Below, piece after piece: positions 3,006 to 32,400 of a stretch of DNA of 64,000 nt. Position 1 is the stretch's first letter. Each line of letters begins with the position of its first letter. The notes under the pieces were generated by a model. It ran no database searches. It was not told the origin of the DNA and worked only from the letters and a program-made list of their open reading frames with translations. The DNA is taken from positions 201,001-265,000 of the forward strand of contig NC_081817.1 of assembly GCF_030704535.1 (NCBI RefSeq), read 5' to 3'. The translations under genes and the position numbers were made by a program. Source of the DNA: Vitis vinifera (Eukaryota; Streptophyta; Magnoliopsida; Vitales; Vitaceae).

Positions 3006-4436
3006 TCATTTCCTAGCTCGACCTGATCTATTGGAAGCGTAGGTGCCATGTTGATGGTCCCAGAAGTCTCCCAAAAACGTCTTCGCCGCATCCAAACTGG
3101 GATAATATGTGGGTTCCATGAAGATTTGAGACAACGAGTCCGTTGAATCGGAACTCAACAGTGGCCGGCTCACCCTCGCTTCCGAACTTCCCATGACCAT
3201 CACCATCACTTGCTTATATGCATAGAAAAACCTCTTCAATGCTGATTCAATCGCCTGCAAAGCCTGAAGCAAATGAATCTTCTCCGACCCTACCTTTTCG
3301 CGGTACAGCTTCATCACTGCCTCCTGAACCCTTGGCCCTCCCTTTGGATCCACCTCAACGCCCAAGAGGTAGGGAACCTTGTGTTTCAGATCTTTTGACG
3401 ATTTCGTGATCTCAACGAGTCCTCGTGATCTGAAGCAGAATGGTTCTGATTCCGGCGAGGATTTGATCGAGAGCTGCTTCTTCAGCCTGAGAAAATCGTC
3501 CGGGTCCATTAGGAGATGGAGGTCTTCGATGTCTGCCAGAAGTTTCCAGATTCGTTCCAGCAACCAACAGTCGCTTGAGGCTTTTTCCAAGTCTCTCTCC
3601 TCGATTCTCTCTGCTATCCGTTTGAGAAGCTGTTGCGCTGTGTAGATCCATGACTCCAAGATCTGGGAAGTGGTGTACAGCGTCTGGTTCTCATAGTTCT
3701 CGACGTGATCGTACGGATTCCTCTTCAGAGAATGAAGCTCTGATGGCTTGCAGACTAGGTCGTACTCCAGGTTTGGCTTCCCTACGAGGTTCGGTTCTCC
3801 CAGACCTAGCGTGTACGGACACCCTCGCATCTCGCATTCAATCGAGTACATGATTTTCTGTGCAATATCTTCCGATTTCGGCCACGTGGCCAGCCTTGGA
3901 AGCAAGCTCGCTTCGCTGGTTCGGCTCACCACCGGTGTCGCTCCCGGAACCTTCCAAACCTCCGCGCAGCTCCCATCGCGAGCCAAAACGCCGTTCGATA
4001 AGCTTAGATCAGAGATGGGTGCAGTTCCACGCATCTCCCCTTCTTCTTCCTCCTCCTCGCACAAGATCGCTACGAGCTGAATCTGATTGGTCGTCAAGGA
4101 CTCGAGCCTCCGCTTCCACTCTCGACGATTTGCGTACGGTCTGGGGTCTGACAAAACGGTGGAAACGAACCGGAAGGTGAGCTCCAACGCTTGCAAAGCC
4201 GGCCTGATAAGAGACTCATTCTTCCAATTCGGAAACTCTCTCGAATCCCATAGCTTCTTAAGCTCCGACAGCCGGAGGTAGTACTCGTACGCTGAACATT
4301 CAGGCGAAGGAGCGGACGATAAATCACCGGCACGAAACGCAGAGGGGATCGAAACCTGAAGCTTATTTGAAAATTTGGGCGACTTTTTGGGCATATCAGG
4401 TGAGACCATTTTCGCTGTGCAATCTAAATCAACCAT
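3006..4436 (-). CDS. HSPRO2: Nematode resistance protein-like HSPRO2 (Hs1pro-1 family)
   Basis: An uninterrupted ORF encodes 476 residues, the usual length of plant HSPRO proteins, which are also intronless. It starts MVDLDCTAKMVSPDMP, like Arabidopsis HSPRO1/2. The Hs1pro-1 N-terminal region (about 1-180; contains SAYEYYLRLSELKKLW) and C-terminal region (about 190-470; ends near TYYPSLDAAKTFLGDFW) are both complete. The family is related by sequence to sugar beet Hs1pro-1; the Arabidopsis members are stress induced, interact with SnRK1 kinase and affect basal resistance. The open frame extends 48 codons upstream to 4580, but that stretch crosses a good TATA box at 4519-4527, so the ATG at 4436 is preferred, leaving a 5' UTR of roughly 50 bases. 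No transmembrane segment is seen; an acidic run (EEEEEEGE) lies near residues 125-135. Whether the grape protein acts against nematodes cannot be told from sequence. Confidence 0.95.
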   Translation of the reverse strand: MVDLDCTAKMVSPDMPKKSPKFSNKLQVSIPSAFRAGDLSSAPSPECSAYEYYLRLSELKKLWDSREFPNWKNESLIRPALQALELTFRFVSTVLSDPRPYANRREWKRRLESLTTNQIQLVAILCEEEEEEGEMRGTAPISDLSLSNGVLARDGSCAEVWKVPGATPVVSRTSEASLLPRLATWPKSEDIAQKIMYSIECEMRGCPYTLGLGEPNLVGKPNLEYDLVCKPSELHSLKRNPYDHVENYENQTLYTTSQILESWIYTAQQLLKRIAERIEERDLEKASSDCWLLERIWKLLADIEDLHLLMDPDDFLRLKKQLSIKSSPESEPFCFRSRGLVEITKSSKDLKHKVPYLLGVEVDPKGGPRVQEAVMKLYREKVGSEKIHLLQALQAIESALKRFFYAYKQVMVMVMGSSEARVSRPLLSSDSTDSLSQIFMEPTYYPSLDAAKTFLGDFWDHQHGTYASNRSGRARK

Positions 4437-4518
4437 GTTTAGGAATAGAAGTGAATGAAAACCGTCGACAACTTGTATTATCTGGTTTGCTCTAATTGAG
4501 GAGGCGAAGAGATGGAGG

Positions 4519-4527
4519 TATTTATAG
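4519..4527 (-). promoter_or_regulatory. TATA box of HSPRO2
   Basis: The minus strand reads CTATAAATA about 83-91 bases upstream of the chosen ATG, the expected place for a TATA box with a short leader. It also argues against using the longer in-frame extension as protein. Confidence 0.7.
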
Positions 4528-4854
4528 GGGCAAAAGAGGGTCGATGAGAAAAGCGTGTGAAAACTGGAAAGAAGGCTCACGAAGAAGGAGGAATTTCAAA
4601 GTCGCCGCGCAGTGAATAGAATTAAAAATTAAATAAATAAATAATAAAGCACCTGATGCTTATCCATTAGCCATGCATCAAGATGCTTGTACCTTGATCA
4701 CCAAACTACCCTTGTAGGATGCCGTCAAGGTTTGCACCCTGCGGATTGAATCGTTGAACTTGGACCATGATCATCTTCAAAATTAGTCCGCCGAGGAGGC
4801 AAGTCACTAACCACACTCGTTCGGATTTTTCCTAAATCTCTAATCACATGGCGA

Positions 4855-9100: not shown

Positions 9101-11118
9101 TTAGTCGAACAAACTGAAACCCATATCATCATCAGACTCTTCCTGTGGCTCTTCCTTCTTTTCTTCCTCCTTAGAAGCAGCAGGAGCAGCACCGGCATCA
9201 GACGCTGTAACCGGGGCCGTTGCAACAGCAAACTTACTAGGATCCTGCATTCATTTTCGCTCAAAACAGTCACTAAACTGCTAAAAACGATTTCAGGAGC
9301 AATAAATTTAATTGACAATAATAAACAATATCATTGCATACCTTTAAGTACTCCTTCACTTTATCTGCCTGAGGGAAGGAATACTCGGTTGCAACAGCGA
9401 CAGCAAGAACATTCTTGTATGCATTGATGAACATGTGGGGTGCAGCTGCTAGGGTTGGATATGAGATAGCCAATGAAAGTGAGGTAACCATGGAGACACC
9501 AGCTGCAAACTTCTCAATGAGATCCTCTTCTGTAAGATCAAGCACCTCAGGGCTGAAAACTGAGCCATTGTCATAAACAGACAGCACAACAAGACCATAA
9601 GAGAAGGGTCTTATCCCAAGCTTGGCAAGCAGGGCTGCTTCAGAAGAGCCCACCTTGTCACCCTTTTTGATAAGCTCCACAGGGGTGATAATTTCAACAG
9701 TACCCTTGTTAATCTTGGTAGGAATATTAAGCACCTGAAAAGAGGTAGGTTGCCTGAGAAACAACTCAGCCAGGCCAGAAGAAAACACAGAATTTTCATT
9801 GCTTGACTACAAACCTGGAAGAAAGAGGTCTGGGAAGGGTCGAGTCCAGTGTTACCAGGTGGGACAATGACATCAATAGGAGCAACTAATCCAACACGAG
9901 CAGGAGCTCCAACCTATCAAATTATAAATAAAACATGATAAACAGGTATCATAAGCACAAGAATTATACAGACCCACCAAATACACTGATGTTCATCAAG
10001 TGTCAACAGCATAAAACTAAAGAAAAAAGTGCAATAGTGCACTACTGTAGTTCCATATTTTTAAAATTTGTAAGCATTTATGCTATTCCAAGTACCACAA
10101 TCTACATCTTAATCACCATTCACTCATGTAAAGCAAAGATGTAACCCCAAGACATTATGATTGATCAGCTTTTGAGTAACCCACAAGTTGGCAAAACTGA
10201 AGCATAACCCACCTAGTATTAATAACTCATTTTTAGAAGCAAGATTACTCTAGCCAGAGTTCTACATTCCTCAGTATTGTCATTTCAGAAGAAAAGGCTA
10301 CAGGGGTTAATACACCAAAACAATCCGTCGCTATTCTAATTCTGCATTCAGGGTGAGTTTTGAGTAACAATTTTCTTCATTCAAATAGGGGTCCTGTTGT
10401 GTACCAATTCGTTATGTCCATAACGAAAGGCACCAATAAGCAAGTATTGCCTCGTGTGTAATTCAGGTCGATTGCTTTGTCGCTCATGTGGTGGTGCCAT
10501 TCTTTTGTACCTAGTCTCATATAATTGTACCTAGTCTCAAATGTTTGTAAACAGCCCAAAATTTAATCATATGCTATGAATGACCCGCATTTAAACTGTC
10601 CTTCGAATTGGTACTTATACTTATTCGGTAATTTAGATTTTTTCTCAAAAGAATATTAAAAAGAAAAAAAAATCAAGACACAGCACCAAAACTGCACCTT
10701 GTACTTCGCAACCTCTTCGCTGACCTCCTTCAAATCACCCTTTGTGAAAATCAGACCCACATTACCCTAATTGGAGAGAGAACAACAAGACAAACAAAAC
10801 TTAGTAAACAAAAAATCATTCCTAGGAAAAAGAAGAAAGACGACGATAGTGAAAACATACCACGAGAAGAGGAATGAGATTGAGGAAAGCCGTGTTTCCA
10901 GTCTTCTCAGCATGAAGCCTAATGGAACGCTTCATCATGGTATTCTTACCCATCAGAACAACAGAATCTCCACGCAGACCCTTGCGAATGTTCTGCAACT
11001 GGTTGGATCCAACATTGTCAGCGGCAGCGATCAGAATCTGACTGTACTCATCCAGAAGCTGGCACAGCTTCTGGTCGTATGCGATCTTCTTGTCGGCCTT
11101 GGATGGTTTCACCGCCAT
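9101..11118 (-). CDS. RPP0: 60S acidic ribosomal protein P0 (uL10)
   Basis: P0 anchors the ribosomal stalk: it binds 25S rRNA at the GTPase centre and carries the P1/P2 proteins that recruit translation factors. Five exons in transcript order: 11118-10861, 10766-10698, 9913-9815, 9734-9342, 9244-9101. All introns are GT-AG and all exons are whole codons, giving 320 residues, normal for plant P0. The rRNA-binding L10 domain is at the N-terminus ([19 protein letters not shown] onwards, roughly 1-110), followed by the P0 insert domain and spine helices. An Ala-rich hinge and the conserved acidic tail [12 protein letters not shown] end the protein. This tail is the shared P0/P1/P2 contact for elongation factors. 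The start is the first ATG of the conserved N-terminus; the upstream open frame is untranslated leader. It is transcribed divergently from SYP31. Confidence 0.97.
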
Positions 11119-11168
11119 TGAGGAAGACTCGAGAGTTTCAGATGAACTGATAAACAAACAAAAGGAAA

Positions 11169-11448
11169 AAACCCTAAGCAAAAACGAGGGCCAAGACGAA
11201 GCTCTAGCTCTGTCAAGGCGGACAGCAATACGACGCCGTCTCTTTAACCTCTCCCTACACAAGATCTACAGCCGCTTCTCAGAAACCCTAGACCTGGTTT
11301 TTGCTTGCAGTAGGGTTTCCAATGGACATCTCTCCACCATATTATACTCCGAAAATAAACCTAGATCCAACGGCTGATGTTAATATGGGCCTCAATGGCC
11401 CAAGAAGGCCCATGTAGCCGGGCCTGTGGGAGGATCTTTTGCTGGGCC
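11169..11448 (-). promoter_or_regulatory. P0 promoter and leader: site II elements plus telo-boxes
   Basis: Four site II motifs (TGGGCC or its complement) lie at 11386-11391, 11397-11402, 11407-11412 and 11443-11448. AAACCCTA-type telo-boxes lie at 11169-11176, 11283-11290 and, inverted, 11311-11318. Site II plus telo-box is the typical promoter grammar of plant ribosomal protein genes (TCP and telo-box binding factors). No clear TATA box is seen, which is also usual for this class. Confidence 0.75.
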
Positions 11449-12346: not shown

Positions 12347-15300
12347 ACATCGTCCGGAGTGTCTAGTTATCGAGATCGGACGTCGGAATTTCGATCTCTC
12401 TCTGGAAGAATGAAGAAGATCGGTGGAATGGCCGTTGCAAATCATGCTGAAGATGATCCAGCAACATCGAGATCATTGGCTTCGGCATCATCACGATCCG
12501 AATTCAACAAAAAGGCTTCACGAATTGGGTTAGGGATCCACGAGGCATGTCTCAAGATCTCCAGGCTTGCCAAATGTATGCCCATCGCCTTCCTTATTTT
12601 CCTTCCATTTGTTAGTTTCAATTGAATCTTTGATAATTTATCGTTTGTTGTGCGAGAAAACGAAAGCAGAGGCATAGGATTTTGAATTTTATCTTTTTTT
12701 TGTTTTTCTATGTTTTCTTAGCAACGAAACGCCTTGCATAAAGAATCCAATGATTTGCTTGTCTTATTTGAGAATTAAGCTAACGAGAGAATCTAATACA
12801 AAATTTCAATCCCTTTTTGGTGAAGTTAGAGAAAAGGATGCAAGAATTTATCAACTATACCTCACTTCCAACATCCAAGCAGATTATGACGAAGTAAATA
12901 AATAAATAAATAATCTATCTTGGGATAGAGGTTTGAGCAATCTGCAGAACTAACCTAATTCACATGCTGGGGTAGCAATTTCCATCGCCGCCAGCAAGCC
13001 AAGTGGTTTGTACCGGGTGAGGCAAATCAGCAGATTGAGACTTACCGGTGTATGGATTGGGGTGAAAATAAGTGCTAGCATTACAAGCTCAAGATGTCAA
13101 TCAGTGAGCTACAAACCTGAAACTAAAATATCTATTTTATTAAAACCGAACTTCAAATAGTAGCTGCTGCTCTTGTCTTACGTTGAAGAGTTGGATCTCA
13201 GGGCTACCTTACTCTGCATTTTGTATCATCATGTGCAATTTCCCTAAATCTTGTTTTCATAGGCCATATTTTGGAGTTGTTATTTCAAAAAGTCTGACTC
13301 ATTAGGTTTGATATTGGGCCTGGAAAGAGTTCAAATTATTTCTGTTACATGTTGTTGTGCTGACATTAAGTTTTGTGTTTTACATTTGCATCAACTTGCA
13401 GTGGCAAAAAAGTCATCAATGTTCAATGACCCAATCATGGAAATACAGGAACTAACTGCCTTGATAAAAGATGATATTACTGCACTCAATATAGCAGTTT
13501 CAGATTTGCAAACCCTTCAAAACCTTGAGATAGCTGATGGAAATTACTCTGATGATAGAGTCGTCCATTCAAATACTGTTTGTGATGACTTAAAGAACAA
13601 ACTTATGGGGGCTACTAAACAGCTCCAGGATGTGTTAACAACTAGAACAGAGGTTAGTGCTGAATGGAATGGTGAATGTTCTTTGTTTTGCTTATCAGTT
13701 TTGCTTAGCCTTTTCTTACTTGTATACAGCATTTCTATCATCCTGTATACCTTTTTTTTACAGAATATCAAGGCTCATGAGAATAGGAAGCAGATTTTTT
13801 CCACAAATGTATCCAGAGAAAACCCTTTTCAGCAGCATGCAAAGACTGTGACTGAGCCACCTCCTTGGTCAAGTTTATCTAAGACATCTGGGAATTTGCA
13901 ACCATCAGTGTGAATATTTCTTCTTAATTCAACTTTTTTTTTTAATAAGCAAAAAGAATACTATTAACAAAGCCTAATCAAAAGCATTTCTTTGAAACTT
14001 TATATTTTATATATATATTGATAGGCAAAGATGAAATATATTAACAGAGCCTAACAAAAGGGCACACAAAAGCATAAATGGTATATTCAAGGGCGCCAAA
14101 AGGCCCAAAAACAGCAGAACTTTATGTTAGATATATGTTTTACTGCTTTAGCATGAATTACGTTTTCTTTGTTCTTCCTTTGCTATCAATGTCAAAGACA
14201 AGATGGTTGCATGAGTTTTTGTTTCATCTTTGTTCCACTGGGGATGAGATAATCCTTTGTGTTCTTTCATGCTGCCATATCATTCATTGTTTTTATTATG
14301 TAAAGAAGTAATGAATGTTTTCTTTTTGTTGTTCCTTTCCTGTCTTTCTCTGACCAGGTTGTCGTCAAATGGAGTTCAAGTTGGCAACCAACTGAGGTAT
14401 GTTTTATGCCATTATTCATGCCCTAGTCATACCAAGATCAGTTTTAATCTTCATATTTTTGTTAGTGGAGCATGCATTCTGTTGCTTGACCATGTACTCT
14501 GATTCGGATGCAATATTATCATAGTATCTTTCTGAAATATGAATCATTAACTTACAGAAACTCAATTTTTCCTATTGATGTTCCCATTGTTTTGAACATG
14601 TCTGAAAAACTTATTTTGTATCTCTGGTCTTATATTTATTTATTGTCCATCTTCAGTCAACAATGATATGACTGCAAATTTCTGATACTAGTGCAACCTA
14701 AGTTATCTGACTTCAGAACTAATTAAATGGATTTAATTTGTGATTTGAATGTTCCATCTCTTTGTGTGCTTGTTACTGGATGCTGGCAGAACTCACTCGA
14801 ACTTTCCTGCATTCACCTGAGCATTTAATTTCCTTTTGATTTACCGAATCCATTTGTTCAGCCCTCTGATGGAATTTTATTTGGATCAAGTTGGAGAAAA
14901 ATATGGTACTTTTTTTTTTTTTGATAAGTAAAAGAAGTATATTAAACGAAAAGAGGAAACACCAAAAACCGGTGCCCTCTAGGTATACAGGTAGTATACA
15001 CACTACCTTCCCTAACTAGGAGCCTATCCAGTCTACAAAACTTACAAGTGAAGAATGACTCTCTGCTAGGGAACCCCTGACCCAAAACCAAAGATTACAT
15101 ACAAAAGAATATTTCAACCTTTGAAGCGAAAGGTTCTCATCCCCAAACGCTAACCTATTTCTCTCCTTCCAAACTGACCAAAAAATACATAAAGGGGCCA
15201 TTTGCCAAGCCTTCTTGCGTCTTTTCTCCACAAACCCTCCATTCCACCCAAGAAGGGTTGTCTTAACTGTACATGAAAGAGTCCAAGATATTCCAAAAAG

Positions 15301-18300
15301 AGAGAAAAGGAGGTTCCATAGGACCCGCGTCTTGACACAATGCAGTAGAAGATGATCCACTGTTTCTTCTTCAGATAGACAGAGGAAGCACCTGTTTGCC
15401 AAAGAGAAACCCCTCCTTTGAAGTTGCTCCTGTGTTAAAATTTTACCCCAAGAAGCCTCCCAAGCAAAGAAAGCTACCTTGGGAGGCACTCTTGCCCTCC
15501 AAATTCTTTCACTAGGGAACAAAGAAAGGCCCCCCTGCTCCATCATAGAATAAAGGGATCTAACAGAGAAGGCCCCATTTTTTGAAGCTGTCCATATCAT
15601 TTTATCTTCCTCCTCCCTCTGAACCCTGAAAGCTTGGATCTTCTGCAACAACCGCTCCACTAGATCAATCTCCCAATCGTTAAACGCCCTTGCAAAGAGA
15701 GGAGTCCATCCACTCCCATCACCAACAGGATTCCACACCTCCGAAACCCAAGCATTCTTCGACATGGACATGGAAAAAAGAGATGGGAAGGACTCACAAA
15801 GAGGCCCATCACCACACCACTTGTCTTTCCAAAATTTCACTCTTTGCCCATTACCCAAATGGAAAGCTACCCTGCCATCAAACAGCCCCCACTTCTTCCT
15901 AATTGCTTTCCAAAGACCAACACCGTTTCTTCCCATCACATCCCGAGTACACCAGCCCCCCTCCTCTACGCCATACTTGAGGCTAATTACATTCCTCCAC
16001 AACGCATCTCTCTCATTAGCAAACCTCCAATTCCACTTACACAAAAGGGCGTTATTCATCAAAGATAAATTTCTCACCCCTAGTCCACCTTTTCTTTTCT
16101 CCAAGCATACCAAGTTCCATCTTACCAGGTGAGGTTTATGGGCTAAAGTTCCCCCACCCCACAGAAAATCCCTCTGAATTTTCTCTAACCTCAACCTCAC
16201 TTTTCTAGGCAAATGAAAGAGAGACATCAAATAAATAGGCATACTGGACATAGTGCTTCTAATTAGGGTGAGTCTTCCCCCCTTAGATATGTACTGCCTC
16301 CTCCACATAGCAAGCCTTCTACGAAAACGCTCTTCAACTCCGTCCCACACCGCCACAGAGTTGAAAGCTGCCCCAAGGGGCATTCCCAAATAACTAGAGG
16401 GTATCCCTCCCACTTTACACCCCAACTCCAAAGCCAAACCATCTATATTCAGCACCCTTCCAACCGGAATCATCTCACTCTTCTCTAAGTTAATCCTCAA
16501 ACCCGAGCACGCCTCAAACCACATAAGAAGCCAACTTAGATATGTCATCTCGTCTGAAGATTCTTCACAAAAAACCAACGTATCATCCGCAAACAACAAA
16601 TGCGATATATGCATCCCCTCACCCCTCCCTCCACTCACCTTCCACCCAGATAAATACCCCCCACTAATAGCCCTTCTCATCATACTGCTAAAAACCTCCA
16701 TGGCGATCACAAACAAATAAGGTGAAAGGGGATCTCCTTGTCTTAGCCCCCTCGTACTTTGGAAGAAACCGGAGGGAGACCCATTAATTAACACGGAGAA
16801 CTTCACTGTTGAGATACACCAATCAATCCACTTTATCCATCTCTTTCCAAACCCCATCTCTTTAAGAACAGCCAGCAAAAAGCTCCAGCTAACACGGTCA
16901 TAAGCCTTCTCTATATCCAACTTGCACAACACCCCTCCCACATTGTCTTTCAATCTTGAGTCCACAGCCTCATTTGCAATCAGCACTGCGTCCAAAATCT
17001 GTCTACCCTCCACAAAGGCATTTTGAGACTCTGAGATCACTTTCCCCAACACCTTTTTAATTCTATTGGCTAACACCTTGGCCAGCAGCTTATAGAGGCT
17101 GCCTACAAGGCTGATGGGCCTAAAATCTTTCAAATCTTCAGCTCCTCCCCTCTTTGGGACTATAACAAGGAATGTTGCATTTAGAGATTTTACAAATCTG
17201 CCCCTCTCGTGAAATTCCTTGAAAAAGCCCATTATTTCAACCTTTACTAACTCCCAACTGAACAACCAAAAGGCCATGGTGAAACCATCCGGGCCGGGGG
17301 CTTTATCCTTGCCTAGATCTGAAAGTGCCGCGAATACCTCCCCTTCCGTAAAAGGAATTTCCAGCCCCTCAGCCTCACAACTGTCTAATCTCATGAAGGA
17401 CAACCCCTCAACCCCAGGACGCCACCCCCCTTCTTCAGTATACAGATTTTTAAAAGCACCCACCACACTATTTCTTAAATCTAACTCCTCCGTATGCCAA
17501 CAATCATCCACTTTCAGCCTAGACAACCAATTCCTTCTGCTATGCGCGTTCGCCATCCTATGAAAGAATTTAGTATTATTGTCCCCCTCCTTCAACCACA
17601 ATTCCCTTGATCTCTGTCTCCAAGAAATTTCTTCCCTCAGCACCCATGTCTTATAAGCCTCCTTAGCCTCCTTCCTGGCTTCACAATCCTCCAAACTCAG
17701 AGTTGATTGATTCTCCACTACATCCCAGTACGCCACCTGGCTAAGAGCTTCTCTCTTCTTAGCCTCAATTACCCCAAAAACTTCTTTATTCCAAGTCTTT
17801 AAGAGCCCTTTTAAGGCTCTTAATTTTGCATCCAAAACGAAGCTGAAAGACCCAGTAAAAGATAAGCTGCCCCACCACCTCTTCATCTGATCCATGAACC
17901 CCCTTTCCTCCAGCCACATATTCTCAAATCTAAAAGGTGACGGACCCCTCTTCAAACCTCCACCTTCAAGGAGGATAGGATAATGATCAGAAACTGGTCT
18001 AGCAAGAATCCCCTGCATGGCTCCAATAAACATTCTGTCCCACTCATCTGTAACTAGGAACCTGTCGAGCCTAGATTGAGACTGATTGTTTAACCCCCCT
18101 CGCCAAGTAAAGAAGCCCCCCTGTAAGGGGTAGTCCTTGAGCTCCAGATCCTCTACCACTTCATTAAATCTCCTCATTGATGCAGATAACTCACCCCCCC
18201 TACTGCGCTCTTCCGGGTATCTGATCATATTAAAGTCACCCCCCACACACCAAGGATCTCTCCATAACCCTTTTATAGACCCAAGCTCCTCCCAAAAAGC

Positions 18301-21300
18301 CTCCCTCTCCCTCCTGCACACCGGTCCATACACTCCGGTGAATACCCACCTCATCCCATCTATACAATTCTTGAACAGACAAGACACCGAAAACATCCCT
18401 TCTTCCACCTCCAACACATCAACCACTCTGTTGTCCCAAAACACCAGAACACCACCAGCTGCCCCCTTAGAGTTAATTGCTCTCCAATCAATGTGTCTTC
18501 CCACCCCAAGGCTGCGGACAATCCCCGTACTCATATCCTTGATTTTAGTCTCCTGCAGGCACACCACGTCCACCTTGTTGGATTTTATTATGGACTTGAT
18601 GATTTTCCTCTTTTCACTATCATTTGCCCCTCTAACATTCCAAGATAAGATCTTTATCATCATTTAATCCCTGATCCTGAAGCCCCTCCGAACTTGCCTT
18701 CATTGGATGCCAACTTAGCTCTTTTATAGCTTACTGTCCATTCCAGCTTCTTTAATTCCCTGCTGGATTTTGACACCGATGACTTTGTCTTTTTATTCTC
18801 CCTATCCTGATTTTTCTTTTCAATTCTCCCCCTCATTCTCCTCAACAGGTAAAGAATTTCTTCCTCAAAACCAACTGTCGGCATACCCAAGCAGTGACTA
18901 AATTTTGCAAGGCAACTGGAGCTCCATTCTTCCTCTCCGTCCCCCACTTCCACCTGAAGGGCCATCGTCTCCACTAATGGGCTTTCTAAAACCCCTCCAA
19001 AAGGAACAATGGCTAGATCAGACCCATTTGCCTCACCACCCGATGCTCTCGGGGACAAGTTCCTATCTTCGAGGACCGAGAGGTCTACCATCCACTCTTC
19101 ACGCGGAGAGTCTCTGCTCCTCGTTTCTTCCACGGCCTCAACCAGACCACTGTTAGCCCTCACCTTCCCCAACACATCATCATCCGACCCCAAGAAAGGA
19201 GAAGAAGGAGAAGAAGCCCCAAACCCCATAGAAAAGATAGGGAGTTTGAAGTTACGGGGGTACCTAGAAGCTTCATTCAAAAGCGCGTCGTCAGTGGACT
19301 TCAGGTGGCCGAGGGGTGGCTCCACGCCGCCGACGCTACCCGCGACCAGAGGATCCTTCTCCAGCTCCGCACGAGCCCCGACAGTCTCAGTGGAAGCCCT
19401 AGAAGGGTCGGGCTCCCTTAAAAAGTCCAAATGGGCCTCAGGCTTTAGAAGCCCAATATGCTTCTCATGCCCCTTGGTCCAGCCCGCTGACTTATGGCAG
19501 AGGGGAGACGGGCCCTCGGCCCAGCTCGCGTCTTCCTTTGTAAGCAGCCCACCAACTCCTTTTAAAAGAGCCCCTTTGCCAGCCATGGGCCCAGGCCCAT
19601 TCCCTGAACAGCCCACTGCAGGGACAGCAGTCTGCCTGCCCCAATCTCTGTCCACTTTCCTTGTTTCACTGCCACACGCCACCTTCCCTTCAGCCCCCCT
19701 TTTTTGAAAATCAGCATGGGGCTCCCGTACTCCAGATTCAGCGCGTGAAGCTCCCCCACCTTCATCCCTAACCTCCCGCTCACTTCTCGTCTGCATCCTA
19801 GAGCTGGACCCAGCCTGCATCACCCTCGGTATGGCTTCCCACCACAAGCAAAGCTCCCACCTCGAGTTACCAGCCTCCACCTGCATCGACCCTAACCATT
19901 TCATTCCCGAATCTTTAACCATAATCCGAGCCCACTGCAGCTGAGAGAAGAGAGCCGTTTCCTCATCCACGGCTACAAACCCCCCACAGCAATCTCCAAT
20001 ACGCTTGAAAACCTCCCTACTCCAAAGATGAAGAGGAAGTCCTACAACTCTTACCCAGACTTCCTTAGCGTGGTTCTCTTTCCAAGTGCACCCCACTGCC
20101 GGTCCCCACCTTTGCAATATAAATTCTCTATCCTTAAAACGACTGCTCCCTCTAAGTAGCACCATATCAGCTTCCCATTTATGTTGAAACTCAAACAGCA
20201 CCAGGGCCCCACCCAACCTGGATATTCTTAACTCCCCTTTCAGCAACCAAACCTCATACGCCCATCTCTTCAAAGAAGGCAATGACGGGATAGACTCAGG
20301 ACTACCACCAAAACAACCCACCAGGCAACGCCCAAGCTGTTCCTCCCTATACCTTATTTCCTTTTCCCCTAGGTGCACCCTCATAGAGTCCACTGGCAGA
20401 CCTTTCTTCCCTTTAACAACTTCTGCATACGAATCTGTCTCATTTTCTGAGGTATTGGTATTGCTTTCCTCCTTACCCATGGATGATACACACTGATAGC
20501 TATTCCTCACTTCTGTGGAAGAGACCCCAAGAGCCCTCAAATTCTTAGCCAACAAGAACCAACCCCCTACTAAGCCATTTCCTTCAGGAAATACTAGACA
20601 AAACTTTTTCCTTTCCACATCTCTTACCGAGCAGAGCAAAAATCTCCCAGCCACGTTAGAGCGACATTCTAGACTGAATTTTCTTGCACCTTCATCCCAG
20701 ACTTTTAAAAGCTTGGAGTTAGATTCTCCTCTGCACCAAGCTTCCACCCCTTCCAACAGAAGGCTTAAACCTTTTTCTCCAAACCTTATCCAAGAGGAGA
20801 AGCCTTTACTCCTTTCCCAAATAGTTCCTCTCAACCTTCCTCTAACCTCTTCAATGGAAATTTCGAAAGACTTAGATTCAACAGCAAACCAACACTTACC
20901 TCCCTTCGAGACTCCATTGGAGTCCCTCACTCCCATACTCTTCAAAATTTTTAGACAAACCGAGGTCGGTTTTTAATCTCTAGAATTTCTTCTCAACAAT
21001 AAAATATGGTACTTATTGATGTAAATAACTATTTATAGATAGATGTGCTCTGATGCCATGGTAACAGCTTGTATTAAACCTTGCCAAGCCAGACGAAGGT
21101 TAGCTGTGGACAACACACCATCCAACCATATGGAAGTGTCCATGTTACAGCAGGTGGTTCCACGACAGGAAAATTATACACAAAGCCGGGCATTGGCTCT
21201 TCAGAATGTCGAATCCACAATTTCAGAACTAAGCGGAATCTTTACTCATCTGGCTACAATGGTTGCACAGCAAGGGGAATTGGCGATCAGGTCTGCTCAT

Positions 21301-29437: not shown

Positions 29438-32400
29438 ATGCTACCTCAGAGACAAGCTGAAGAAGTCATGGTCTCCGGCCTCAACGAGACAGAGGGTGAT
29501 GAGAGAGAGGAAGACAAGGGAGACGAGAGCCAGCTCAGCCTCAAAACCCTTCTCTGGCATGGTGGGTCTGTTTACGATGCCTGGTTCAGCTGTGCGTCAA
29601 ACCAGGTATACTCATTTCTACTACTATACTCTATAACCACACGCAAATCCCTCAAAAACACCACTCATGTTTGGAAATGGAAATACAGGTTGCCCAGGTT
29701 CTGTTAACGTTGCCATACTCCTTCTCTCAATTGGGTATGCTCTCAGGAGTCATTTTTCAGATCTTCTATGGCATTCTCGGAAGCTGGACTGCCTATCTCA
29801 TCAGTGTTCTTTACATTGAGTACCGCAGCAGGAAGGAGAAAGAGAACGTCAGCTTCAAGAATCATGTCATTCAGGTTTTCAAATTTCGACAACAACCTTA
29901 CCTTACCCATCAAAAATTCTGAAAATTTAAACATCTTTCCATTCCAGTATCATCAGCTAACAGAAAAAAAATGAGTTATCAATTGTTCTTCTCTTATTTG
30001 CAGTGGTTTGAAGTGCTGGATGGTTTGTTGGGTCCCTACTGGAAAGCAATGGGATTGGCCTTCAACTGTACTTTCCTCCTTTTTGGATCCGTCATACAGC
30101 TGATTGCTTGTGCAAGGTCAGTTTCATTTTCATTAAGAATGGTAAAAATCAGAAATCTGGGGTGGTGGGGAGGATTAATCTGAGGTGGTGATGAACTGGT
30201 GGGATGTTTACAGCAATATATACTACATAAATGATCGACTGGACAAGAGGACATGGACCTACATCTTCGGAGCTTGCTGTGCCACAACTGTCTTCATTCC
30301 TTCATTCCACAACTACAGGCTTTGGTCTTTTCTTGGTCTTGGTATGACCACTTACACTGCCTGGTATTTGACCATTGCAGCCCTGGTTCAAGGCCAGGTA
30401 TTCTTCATTTTTTCTTTCTGGGTTTTTCACTCCTTACAATCATCCTTCACTGGATAAACGAATCACTTTCCTTTTATCTTTTGTAATCTCAACGGAAAGC
30501 CATTGACTTTGGATGGTTTTTACTGTTTTACAGGTTGAAAATGTGAAGCACACAGGCCCTACTAAGCTGGTCCTGTATTTCACTGGGGCCACCAACATCC
30601 TCTACACTTTCGGCGGACACGCCGTCACTGTGTGAGTGATTTTCCCATTTCTCAACTCCATCTCTCTTATATTTTATGCGTTTATTTTTAGTTTTTTCAT
30701 ATCCATATTTGTTTGAACAAAAATTGCAAAAAAAAAAAGAAAGAAAAGAAAATAGAAAATGTTGCAGCTTTTTCTTACCATTTCTGGGTCTTGACAGAAA
30801 AATCATTAAAAGCAACTTTTCTGATCCTTTTCAAGGAAGATTAAACTAAGAAAGTGACAATCTCTCTGAGCTGCATCTTCCATGCGTTTTTTCAATAAAT
30901 ACACTGACATTTTCAATGGTCTATTCTGCTTTTAAAACCACCTATTCTTCAAAGTGCTTTGTTGGAGAAGATACAAAATATTTATGTTCCAACATTTTTT
31001 TAAAGGGAGCACTTGAGCTCCGTATAATATTCCATTGATCGAGAGAAGTTCCATATGCAGAGAGCAAGCAAACAACAGAAAAAATAAGTATATATGGCAT
31101 ATGATTTCTCCCCCATACCCCGCAATCAATGGTATATCAAGTATAGCTTAAACATGGTACTGGCCCTACTGGCCCTACTGTCATTACTCATTCTTGGTCA
31201 CTTGCCGAGTATGAGTGCCAGCTGGGGATATAATTGCATCTCACCCTCTAGTACAGTTGCGTTTTCTATGTAGTTTATAACTAGCTTGTGTAGTTTACTA
31301 CCAGTAAAGTTCACTAGCTTCTCAAGAATATAACTGCCCATTTCAAACCAAGGGAAAGGGATGTGTCATATGACCAGTCTCATTTGAAGTGTCCCAAATG
31401 TCAGAACATGTACCTTTTGATGATTTTATTATTTATTTTTTAACATTCAATGCTATGCAAAAACCTGGACCCATCAAGTCTTTGAATTTGAAAATTTTCA
31501 TACTGACCTCGTAAGATTTTGATGGCCATGGAGTAAAAGTGAAGTTTTTCATGGTGGTCCTTATTTTAGATTGACTTCAAGGATATCAGGGCAAAAATGA
31601 ATTCATTTGTGATGGTCCTATAAGATTTTACACACTATTGCAGACAGGTTATTCCAATTATTAGCATTTCTCAACAAACTAATTGGGGTTCTGGGTTTTC
31701 TTTCGTTTTTTTTTTCTTCTAGGGAAATCATGCATGCAATGTGGAAGCCTCAAAAATTCAAGTACATATACCTTGTTGCCACCCTATATGTATTCACCCT
31801 AACAATTCCATCGGCTGTTGCGGTATACTGGGCCTTTGGGGACCAACTCCTCGACCATTCCAATGCCTTTTCGCTCCTTCCCCAAACTGGATTCCGTGAT
31901 GCTGCTGTGATCCTAATGCTCATCCACCAGGTCTCTATATTCTTTCTCCCATTGCCCATACTATTTAACATCTTGCTCAAATTGGTTATATATATCTTAT
32001 TGTCCTGTGTGTTGCAGTTCATTACATTTGGATTTGCTTGTACACCCCTGTATTTTGTGTGGGAGAAGGTGGTGGGGGTGCATGATACAAAGAGCATATG
32101 TTTAAGGGCACTCGCTCGGCTGCCAGTGGTCATACCGATATGGTTCTTGGCCATCATATTTCCTTTCTTTGGGCCCATTAATTCAGCTGTGGGGGCTCTT
32201 TTGGTCAGCTTCACCGTCTACATCATCCCAGCTCTTGCCCATATGCTCACTTACAGAAAGGCCTCAGCCAGAAAGGTAAATGGCCCTATCTTTTCTCCAC
32301 CTCTTATCTTCACTTTTACTGGCATTATCTATTACCCACACTCACCACGCTTACTTTCTGGCCCTTAATGACCCAGATAACCTTTATGCATACACATCTG

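Follow-up and report, generated by a model that had tools for sequence, protein, structure and literature searches.

We report that a lineage of long interspersed nuclear elements (LINEs) of the L1 type in grapevine (Vitis vinifera) has no heritable 5′ untranslated region (UTR) in the copies compared, and that full-length copies carry extra leaders while truncated copies carry none. The copy that serves as reference lies in a stretch of 64,000 nucleotides (nt), hereafter the window, which corresponds to C13:201001-265000 of a 495.6 Mb assembly of 21 contigs; both the window and the assembly were searched. The element occupies window positions 14912-21000 on the minus strand and, judged from its sequence, appears to be a young full-length L1-type plant LINE that was inserted in reverse orientation into an intron of a SNARE gene. 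We consider it probable, on balance, that the lineage as such has no heritable 5′ UTR, that its RNA begins at, or close to, the AUG of the first open reading frame (ORF1), and that a new leader is gained on insertion.

Shared sequence begins at the ORF1 start codon

BLAST similarity to the window element stopped 9 nt (L003), 5 nt (L004) or 3 nt (L005, L007 and L010) before the ATG of ORF1. The window copy itself has a 64-nt 5′ leader between its target-site duplication (TSD) and the ATG (20937-21000, minus strand), and only the last 9 nt of this leader were common to another copy, L003; the two share TTGAAGAGT just before the ATG. The first 200 nt of ORF1, used as a query, gave 168 candidate places, of which 40 were scored. 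Among these, all 12 group-A copies (at least 89% identity) began at the ATG, and in each of the 12 the sequence upstream differed bar a few nt, as it also did in the B-type copies L047, L048, L051, L052 and L053. Comparisons in two further subfamilies did not use the ATG as the edge of the query: L016, L017 and L018 are 99.7-99.8% identical over 5.3 kb with alignments that start 1-2 nt before the ATG, and the alignment of L029 with a copy on contig C18 starts 6 nt before it.

Overall, identity ended 0-9 nt before the ORF1 ATG in 22 full-length copies from four subfamilies. The longest shared run adjoining the ATG among the 231 pairs of these copies was the 9 nt of the window copy and L003, followed by runs of 5-7 nt. 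The 140-nt pieces upstream of the 22 copies showed local similarity no higher than that of shuffles, and no long 5′ extension common to two copies was seen among them. The comparison omits 9 of the 20 junctions fetched (L049, L050 and L054-L060), which are those of old copies with a doubtful start or of a truncated copy (L049). We also considered that window 14912-21000 might be a 5′-truncated copy, and rejected this because the sisters compared extend at most 9 nt 5′ of the ORF1 ATG.

Full-length copies carry leaders and truncated copies do not

We then compared the 5′ junctions of full-length and truncated insertions. A clear TSD was present in 14 of the 24 full-length-looking copies and lacking in five (L003, L005, L012, L046 and L058); the remaining five (L042, L044, L045, L050 and L052), whose 3′ end or A-run fell outside the piece fetched, were not judged. 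Extra nt, largely private to each copy and 5-137 in number, stood between the TSD and the ATG in 14/14 full-length copies with a clear TSD. The leaders measured 137 nt in L004, 64 in the window copy, 52-55 in L016, 43 in L010, 37 in L048, 36 in L013, 30 in the C18 copy, 26 in L007, 23 in L014/L053, 17 in L017, 14-17 in L051, 11 in L047, 8 in L018 and 5 or 12 in L029, where the values for L016 (52/55), L051 (14/17) and L029 (5/12) vary with the chosen TSD end. Nine truncated copies were examined, four of them without a clear TSD (L008, L011, L020 and L028). The five with a clear TSD (L002, L006, L009, L026 and L030) joined the target directly, with an overlap of 0-10 nt, and none had a leader (14/14 versus 0/5, Fisher p = 8.6e-5). 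The difference persisted when L007, whose TSD is a microsatellite, and L029, whose TSD requires gaps, were left out (12/12 versus 0/5, p = 1.6e-4). The author assigned TSDs and leader limits without blinding. Full-length and truncated junctions provide a natural data set for two 5′-joining routes of LINE insertion in a plant.

Two leaders match single unlinked loci

Five leaders or upstream pieces (window copy, L004, L005, L012 and L016) were searched in the genome, and two of them each had one unlinked matching locus. Positions 1-109 of the L004 leader are identical to C10:12628426-12628534 (100%), so that this leader consists of a contiguous genomic piece of 109 nt plus 28 nt, and 52 nt of the L016 leader match C14:28256512-28256563 at 98%. 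Upstream of the C10 donor we also observed 57 nt that resemble the 3′ tail of a LINE, and TTGAGTGTAGGCAAC is common to the L004 target site on C14 and to a stretch 0.6 kb upstream of the donor (C10:12627840, L081).

Other sources of the leaders found no support. Spliced host exons were considered, but the C10 donor reads GCTCAAAAG past the end of the L004 patch, with no GT. Chimeras with tRNA or other small RNA were not found by ARAGORN (11 loci) or Rfam (20 loci, E up to 1). When 13 leaders were compared with the element itself, only that of L003 stood out, with 12 nt of the element's 5′ end, a length that 11 of 200 shuffles also reached. A separate observation concerns L032, on the 5′ side of L003 on C2, where a second GGATGGGAGTGAGG stands ahead of what remains of the leader, as though the enzyme had changed templates from one LINE RNA end to another.

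The first ATG of ORF1 is probably the real start

After the first ATG of ORF1, the next one in frame is codon 153. We estimated the ratio of nonsynonymous to synonymous substitution (dN/dS) over codons 1-154. Against the window copy it was 0.066 for L005, 0.131 for L007 and 0.107 for L010; among L005, L007 and L010 it was 0.178-0.315 (six pairs overall, 0.066-0.315). These values indicate that codons 1-154 are translated under purifying selection, which makes the first ATG the probable start of ORF1; a later start at codon 153 is unlikely, given a dN/dS below 0.32 in all six pairs. The N-termini, all in frame, differ by subfamily (MGVRDSN-, MDSS-, MEESS- and MAAFSEGE-) and by eye are followed by a GVSK/GAPK block. 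Varied N-termini before a common block would be expected if start codons were renewed at the 5′ end.

How the leaders may arise

We reasoned that a LINE RNA starting at the AUG or a few nt upstream would be an mRNA with no leader or a very short one, and that its promoter would then have to be located within ORF1 or in neighboring DNA. Reverse transcription would run off the 5′ end of this RNA, and the enzyme or the repair machinery would add a patch copied from another nucleic acid, after which the end would be joined to the target. A truncated copy would end within the RNA and be joined by microhomology or bluntly, with no patch. In its most specific form, which we put forward tentatively, the element would discard its old leader in each cycle and acquire a new one by template jumping, with host sequence supplying each new leader and, in some cases, a new start codon and N-terminus.

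Several observations weigh against a start at the AUG followed by patching. The transcription start is inferred from a comparison of DNA. Short runs are shared before the ATG, namely GAGAGT in L042, L044 and L045, GAAGGA in L047 and L048, and the run already noted in the window copy and L003, so that a few upstream nt are inherited. The leaders of the window copy and L005 have no other match in the assembly, although no match does not prove absence, and the search with the window leader passes over very common words. In the L012 upstream piece, 43 nt belong to an abundant repeat that occurs in at least 39 other places and is tRNA-like by eye; they may be target DNA, since L012 lacks a clear TSD. 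A single ectopic donor is therefore shown for only two leaders. In addition, L029 may carry no patch beyond 5 nt, and the five full-length copies without a clear TSD cannot be judged. Finally, the two-part leader of L004 would fit a parent that is missing from the assembly and whose flank and leader it would combine.

This last point belongs to 5′ transduction, in which the RNA starts in host DNA upstream of the parent and daughters carry the parental flank as their leader, the parents being different or missing from the assembly. According to the part of the source available, it is the published reading of extra nt on full-length human L1 copies (PMC2912911). However, 5′ transduction predicts leaders common to siblings, and the alignments of the near-identical L016, L017 and L018 extend upstream of the ATG by no more than 2 nt. 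Among the 22 copies, leaders matched the upstream 140 nt of other copies only at chance level, apart from the 9-nt run. The unmatched leaders of the window copy and L005 count against it too, as does the C10 donor, after which no LINE of the compared set lies within 2.6 kb. We regard 5′ transduction as rather unlikely, while noting that, between a template patch and a transduced flank, neither is proven by DNA comparison. It is improbable that 5′ truncation fell at the ATG by chance and selection kept the start codons, with an ancestral 5′ UTR lost everywhere sampled. LINE truncation is indeed common, and only copies that keep ORF1 can have daughters; yet most of the sampled copies need not be parents and are thus unfiltered, and still 22/22 share at most 9 nt upstream. 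Nor would chance truncation account for extra nt at full-length junctions and none at truncated ones. The remaining reading, that the 64 nt are the 5′ UTR of the family and the element an ordinary full-length LINE, was implied by the borders given in an earlier note on this DNA, and the TSD does directly flank 14912-21000. That reading is contradicted in the assembly and is highly improbable: bar its last 9 nt the leader is private to the window copy and matches nothing else, yet downstream of it identity reaches 99.6% with L003 and 99.5% with L004.

If, as we favor, a successful lineage persists with no heritable 5′ UTR, it would be natural to ask where its promoter lies, how translation proceeds on an RNA with a short leader or none, and whether every insertion amounts to a small trial of capturing a host leader.

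Comparison with known LINEs

The closest described element that we found is Celine of poplar. In the part of that report available (PMC11288735), Celine resembles the window LINE in its size of ∼6.1 kb, its two overlapping ORFs with DUF4283 in ORF1 and endonuclease and reverse transcriptase (RT) in ORF2, its short poly(A) and its TSD (mean 15 bp). It differs in that the published example has a 635-bp 5′ UTR, whereas copies of the window family have none in common, and in that Celine is concentrated in centromeres, whereas the window copy lies in a gene intron (PMC11288735).

Human LINE-1 resembles the window LINE in its endonuclease-RT protein (E = 7.7e-44) and its TSD. The likeness extends to the junctions: in the portions of the sources available, extra nt are frequent on full-length human L1 copies and are explained there by transcripts that begin upstream (PMC2912911), and microhomology is greater in truncated copies (PMC4245944). 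The latter source also describes full-length human L1 inserts in cultured chicken cells, most of which (76%) were joined directly. In human L1 an internal promoter resides in the 5′ UTR, according to the part available of PMC3286893. Unlike human L1, the window family has an inherited part that starts at the ORF1 ATG, with leaders of up to 137 nt. No LINE family without a 5′ UTR was described in the titles and abstract openings searched, a scope outside which most subscription journals fall.

Anatomy of the window element

The element is flanked by a perfect 14-nt direct repeat, the TSD, at 14898-14911 (left copy, on the element's 3′ side) and 21001-21014 (right copy, 5′ side). On the minus strand, the poly(A) tail (14912-14922) is read as a T-run on the plus strand, and the 3′ UTR (14923-15015) ends in TACTTATC(A)n. 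TACTTAT was found in 17/17 listed copies and TACTTATC in 14 of these 17.

ORF1 (18660-20936, minus strand) is an open frame of 758 amino acids with a DUF4283 domain (PF14111, amino acids 217-340; 19917-20288), the sole family listed in a Pfam scan at E up to 1, which gave no zinc-knuckle match. ORF2 (15016-18663, minus strand) encodes 1215 amino acids, and Pfam placed in it an endonuclease domain of the EEP type (PF03372, amino acids 6-227; 17983-18648), an RT domain (RVT_1, PF00078, amino acids 502-732; 16468-17160) and a zf-RVT domain (PF13966, amino acids 1032-1116; 15316-15570). Among solved structures, the best match of the ORF2 protein was human L1 ORF2p, with R2 behind; residues 3-887 align to it (8sxt, E = 7.7e-44). 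The endonuclease stretches NVRG, QET, GDFN and SDH and the RT stretches DIEKAYD and FADD, which we take to be the catalytic blocks of ORF2p, stand opposite their human counterparts.

The two frames overlap by 4 nt, ATGA (18660-18663, minus strand), in which the stop of ORF1 meets the start of ORF2. We examined 30 loci, and all 23 that have the ORF2 start at the expected place read AATGA at the junction; in 12/12 loci read, the ORF1 frame terminates in the TGA of this overlap. From the ATGA overlap alone, we infer that ORF2 may be translated by termination-reinitiation. SART1 and similar LINEs likewise use stop-start coupling, with the ORF1 stop overlapping the ORF2 start.

The element thus has the features of L1-type plant LINEs, with an apurinic-type endonuclease and RT in ORF2, a C-terminal zf-RVT domain, a DUF4283 ORF1, a poly(A) tail and a TSD within 10-20 bp; a 5′ UTR common to copies, usual but not defining for this class, was absent. 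With both ORFs open and the catalytic blocks kept, the window copy has the coding features expected of an autonomous, mobile LINE. The earlier note had described uninterrupted ORFs, intact endonuclease and RT motifs, a perfect 14-bp duplication and a poly(A) tail, and our analysis agrees with it on each.

Age and relatives

The element had also been called young, and a genome search for near-identical copies had been suggested; this search returned three, in accord with a recent insertion. L002, which is 5′-truncated, is 99.74% identical to the window copy over 4623 nt, and L003 and L004 are 99.64% and 99.49% identical to it over 5252 nt. Comparison with these three leaves 5 substitutions that are private to the window copy over 5241 nt, a span that excludes the 5′-most part of the element. 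With assumed rates of 2.5e-9 to 7e-9 substitutions per site per year (the author's assumption), these suggest an insertion age of ∼0.14-0.38 million years, or 0.04-0.9 million years with Poisson limits. All 5 are C>T or G>A, a bias compatible with methylation. More widely, tblastn with ORF2 gave at least 39 scored matches in the genome, the last two being pieces of one copy on C11.

The open ORFs fit a potentially mobile window copy. Such a copy had been thought uncommon, and this was borne out only in part. L005, L012 and L025 are indeed broken, with stops in the frames read. However, 5 of the 9 sister copies read (L004, L007, L016, L018 and L029) were free of stops in ORF2 and in the parts of ORF1 read, so an intact copy is not rare in this genome; in L016, L017, L018 and L029, ORF1 was read as two pieces, with the joining frame unchecked. 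The other copies read had a stop at ORF1 codon 49 (L003), in ORF2 (L010), in ORF1 (L017) or in the part of ORF1 read (C18 copy, for which ORF2 was listed without stops).

L028, L029, L030 and the C18 copy (C18:32285789-32289430) form a more distant LINE subfamily with the 3′ end GCCAAT(C)(A)n. L028-L030 are 99.9% identical over 5.3 kb, pointing to activity as recent as that of the window copy. Among mobile elements in Pinot clones, LINEs ranked first in abundance and Gypsy elements were more polymorphic, according to the part available of PMC3299709.

The host gene and its neighbors

The element lies antisense within an intron of a syntaxin-type SNARE gene, SYP31 in the earlier note (14397-21092, plus strand). 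By eye, exon 4 ends at 14396 and exon 5 starts at 21093, giving an intron of 6696 nt with gt/ag borders; both splice borders are intact. The element plus one TSD (6103 nt) makes up 91% of this intron, as the description of it as most of a 6.7 kb intron had anticipated, and it adjoins exon 5 as described, at a distance of 78 nt from the end of the right TSD and not 79. The SNARE assignment held in part: one of three host pieces scanned contains a SNARE domain (PF05739, E = 5.9e-15), the other two had no Pfam match, and the joined host exons match syntaxins weakly (best E = 8.4e-5). The insertion in the intron may itself serve as a presence/absence marker.

Elsewhere in the window, an open 529-amino-acid frame with both Hs1pro-1 domains (PF07014 and PF07231) lies at 3006-4595 (minus strand), frames with ribosomal protein L10/P0 domain matches (PF00466 and PF17777) at 9273-11265 (minus strand), and a frame with an amino-acid transporter domain (PF01490) at 31613-32368 (plus strand).

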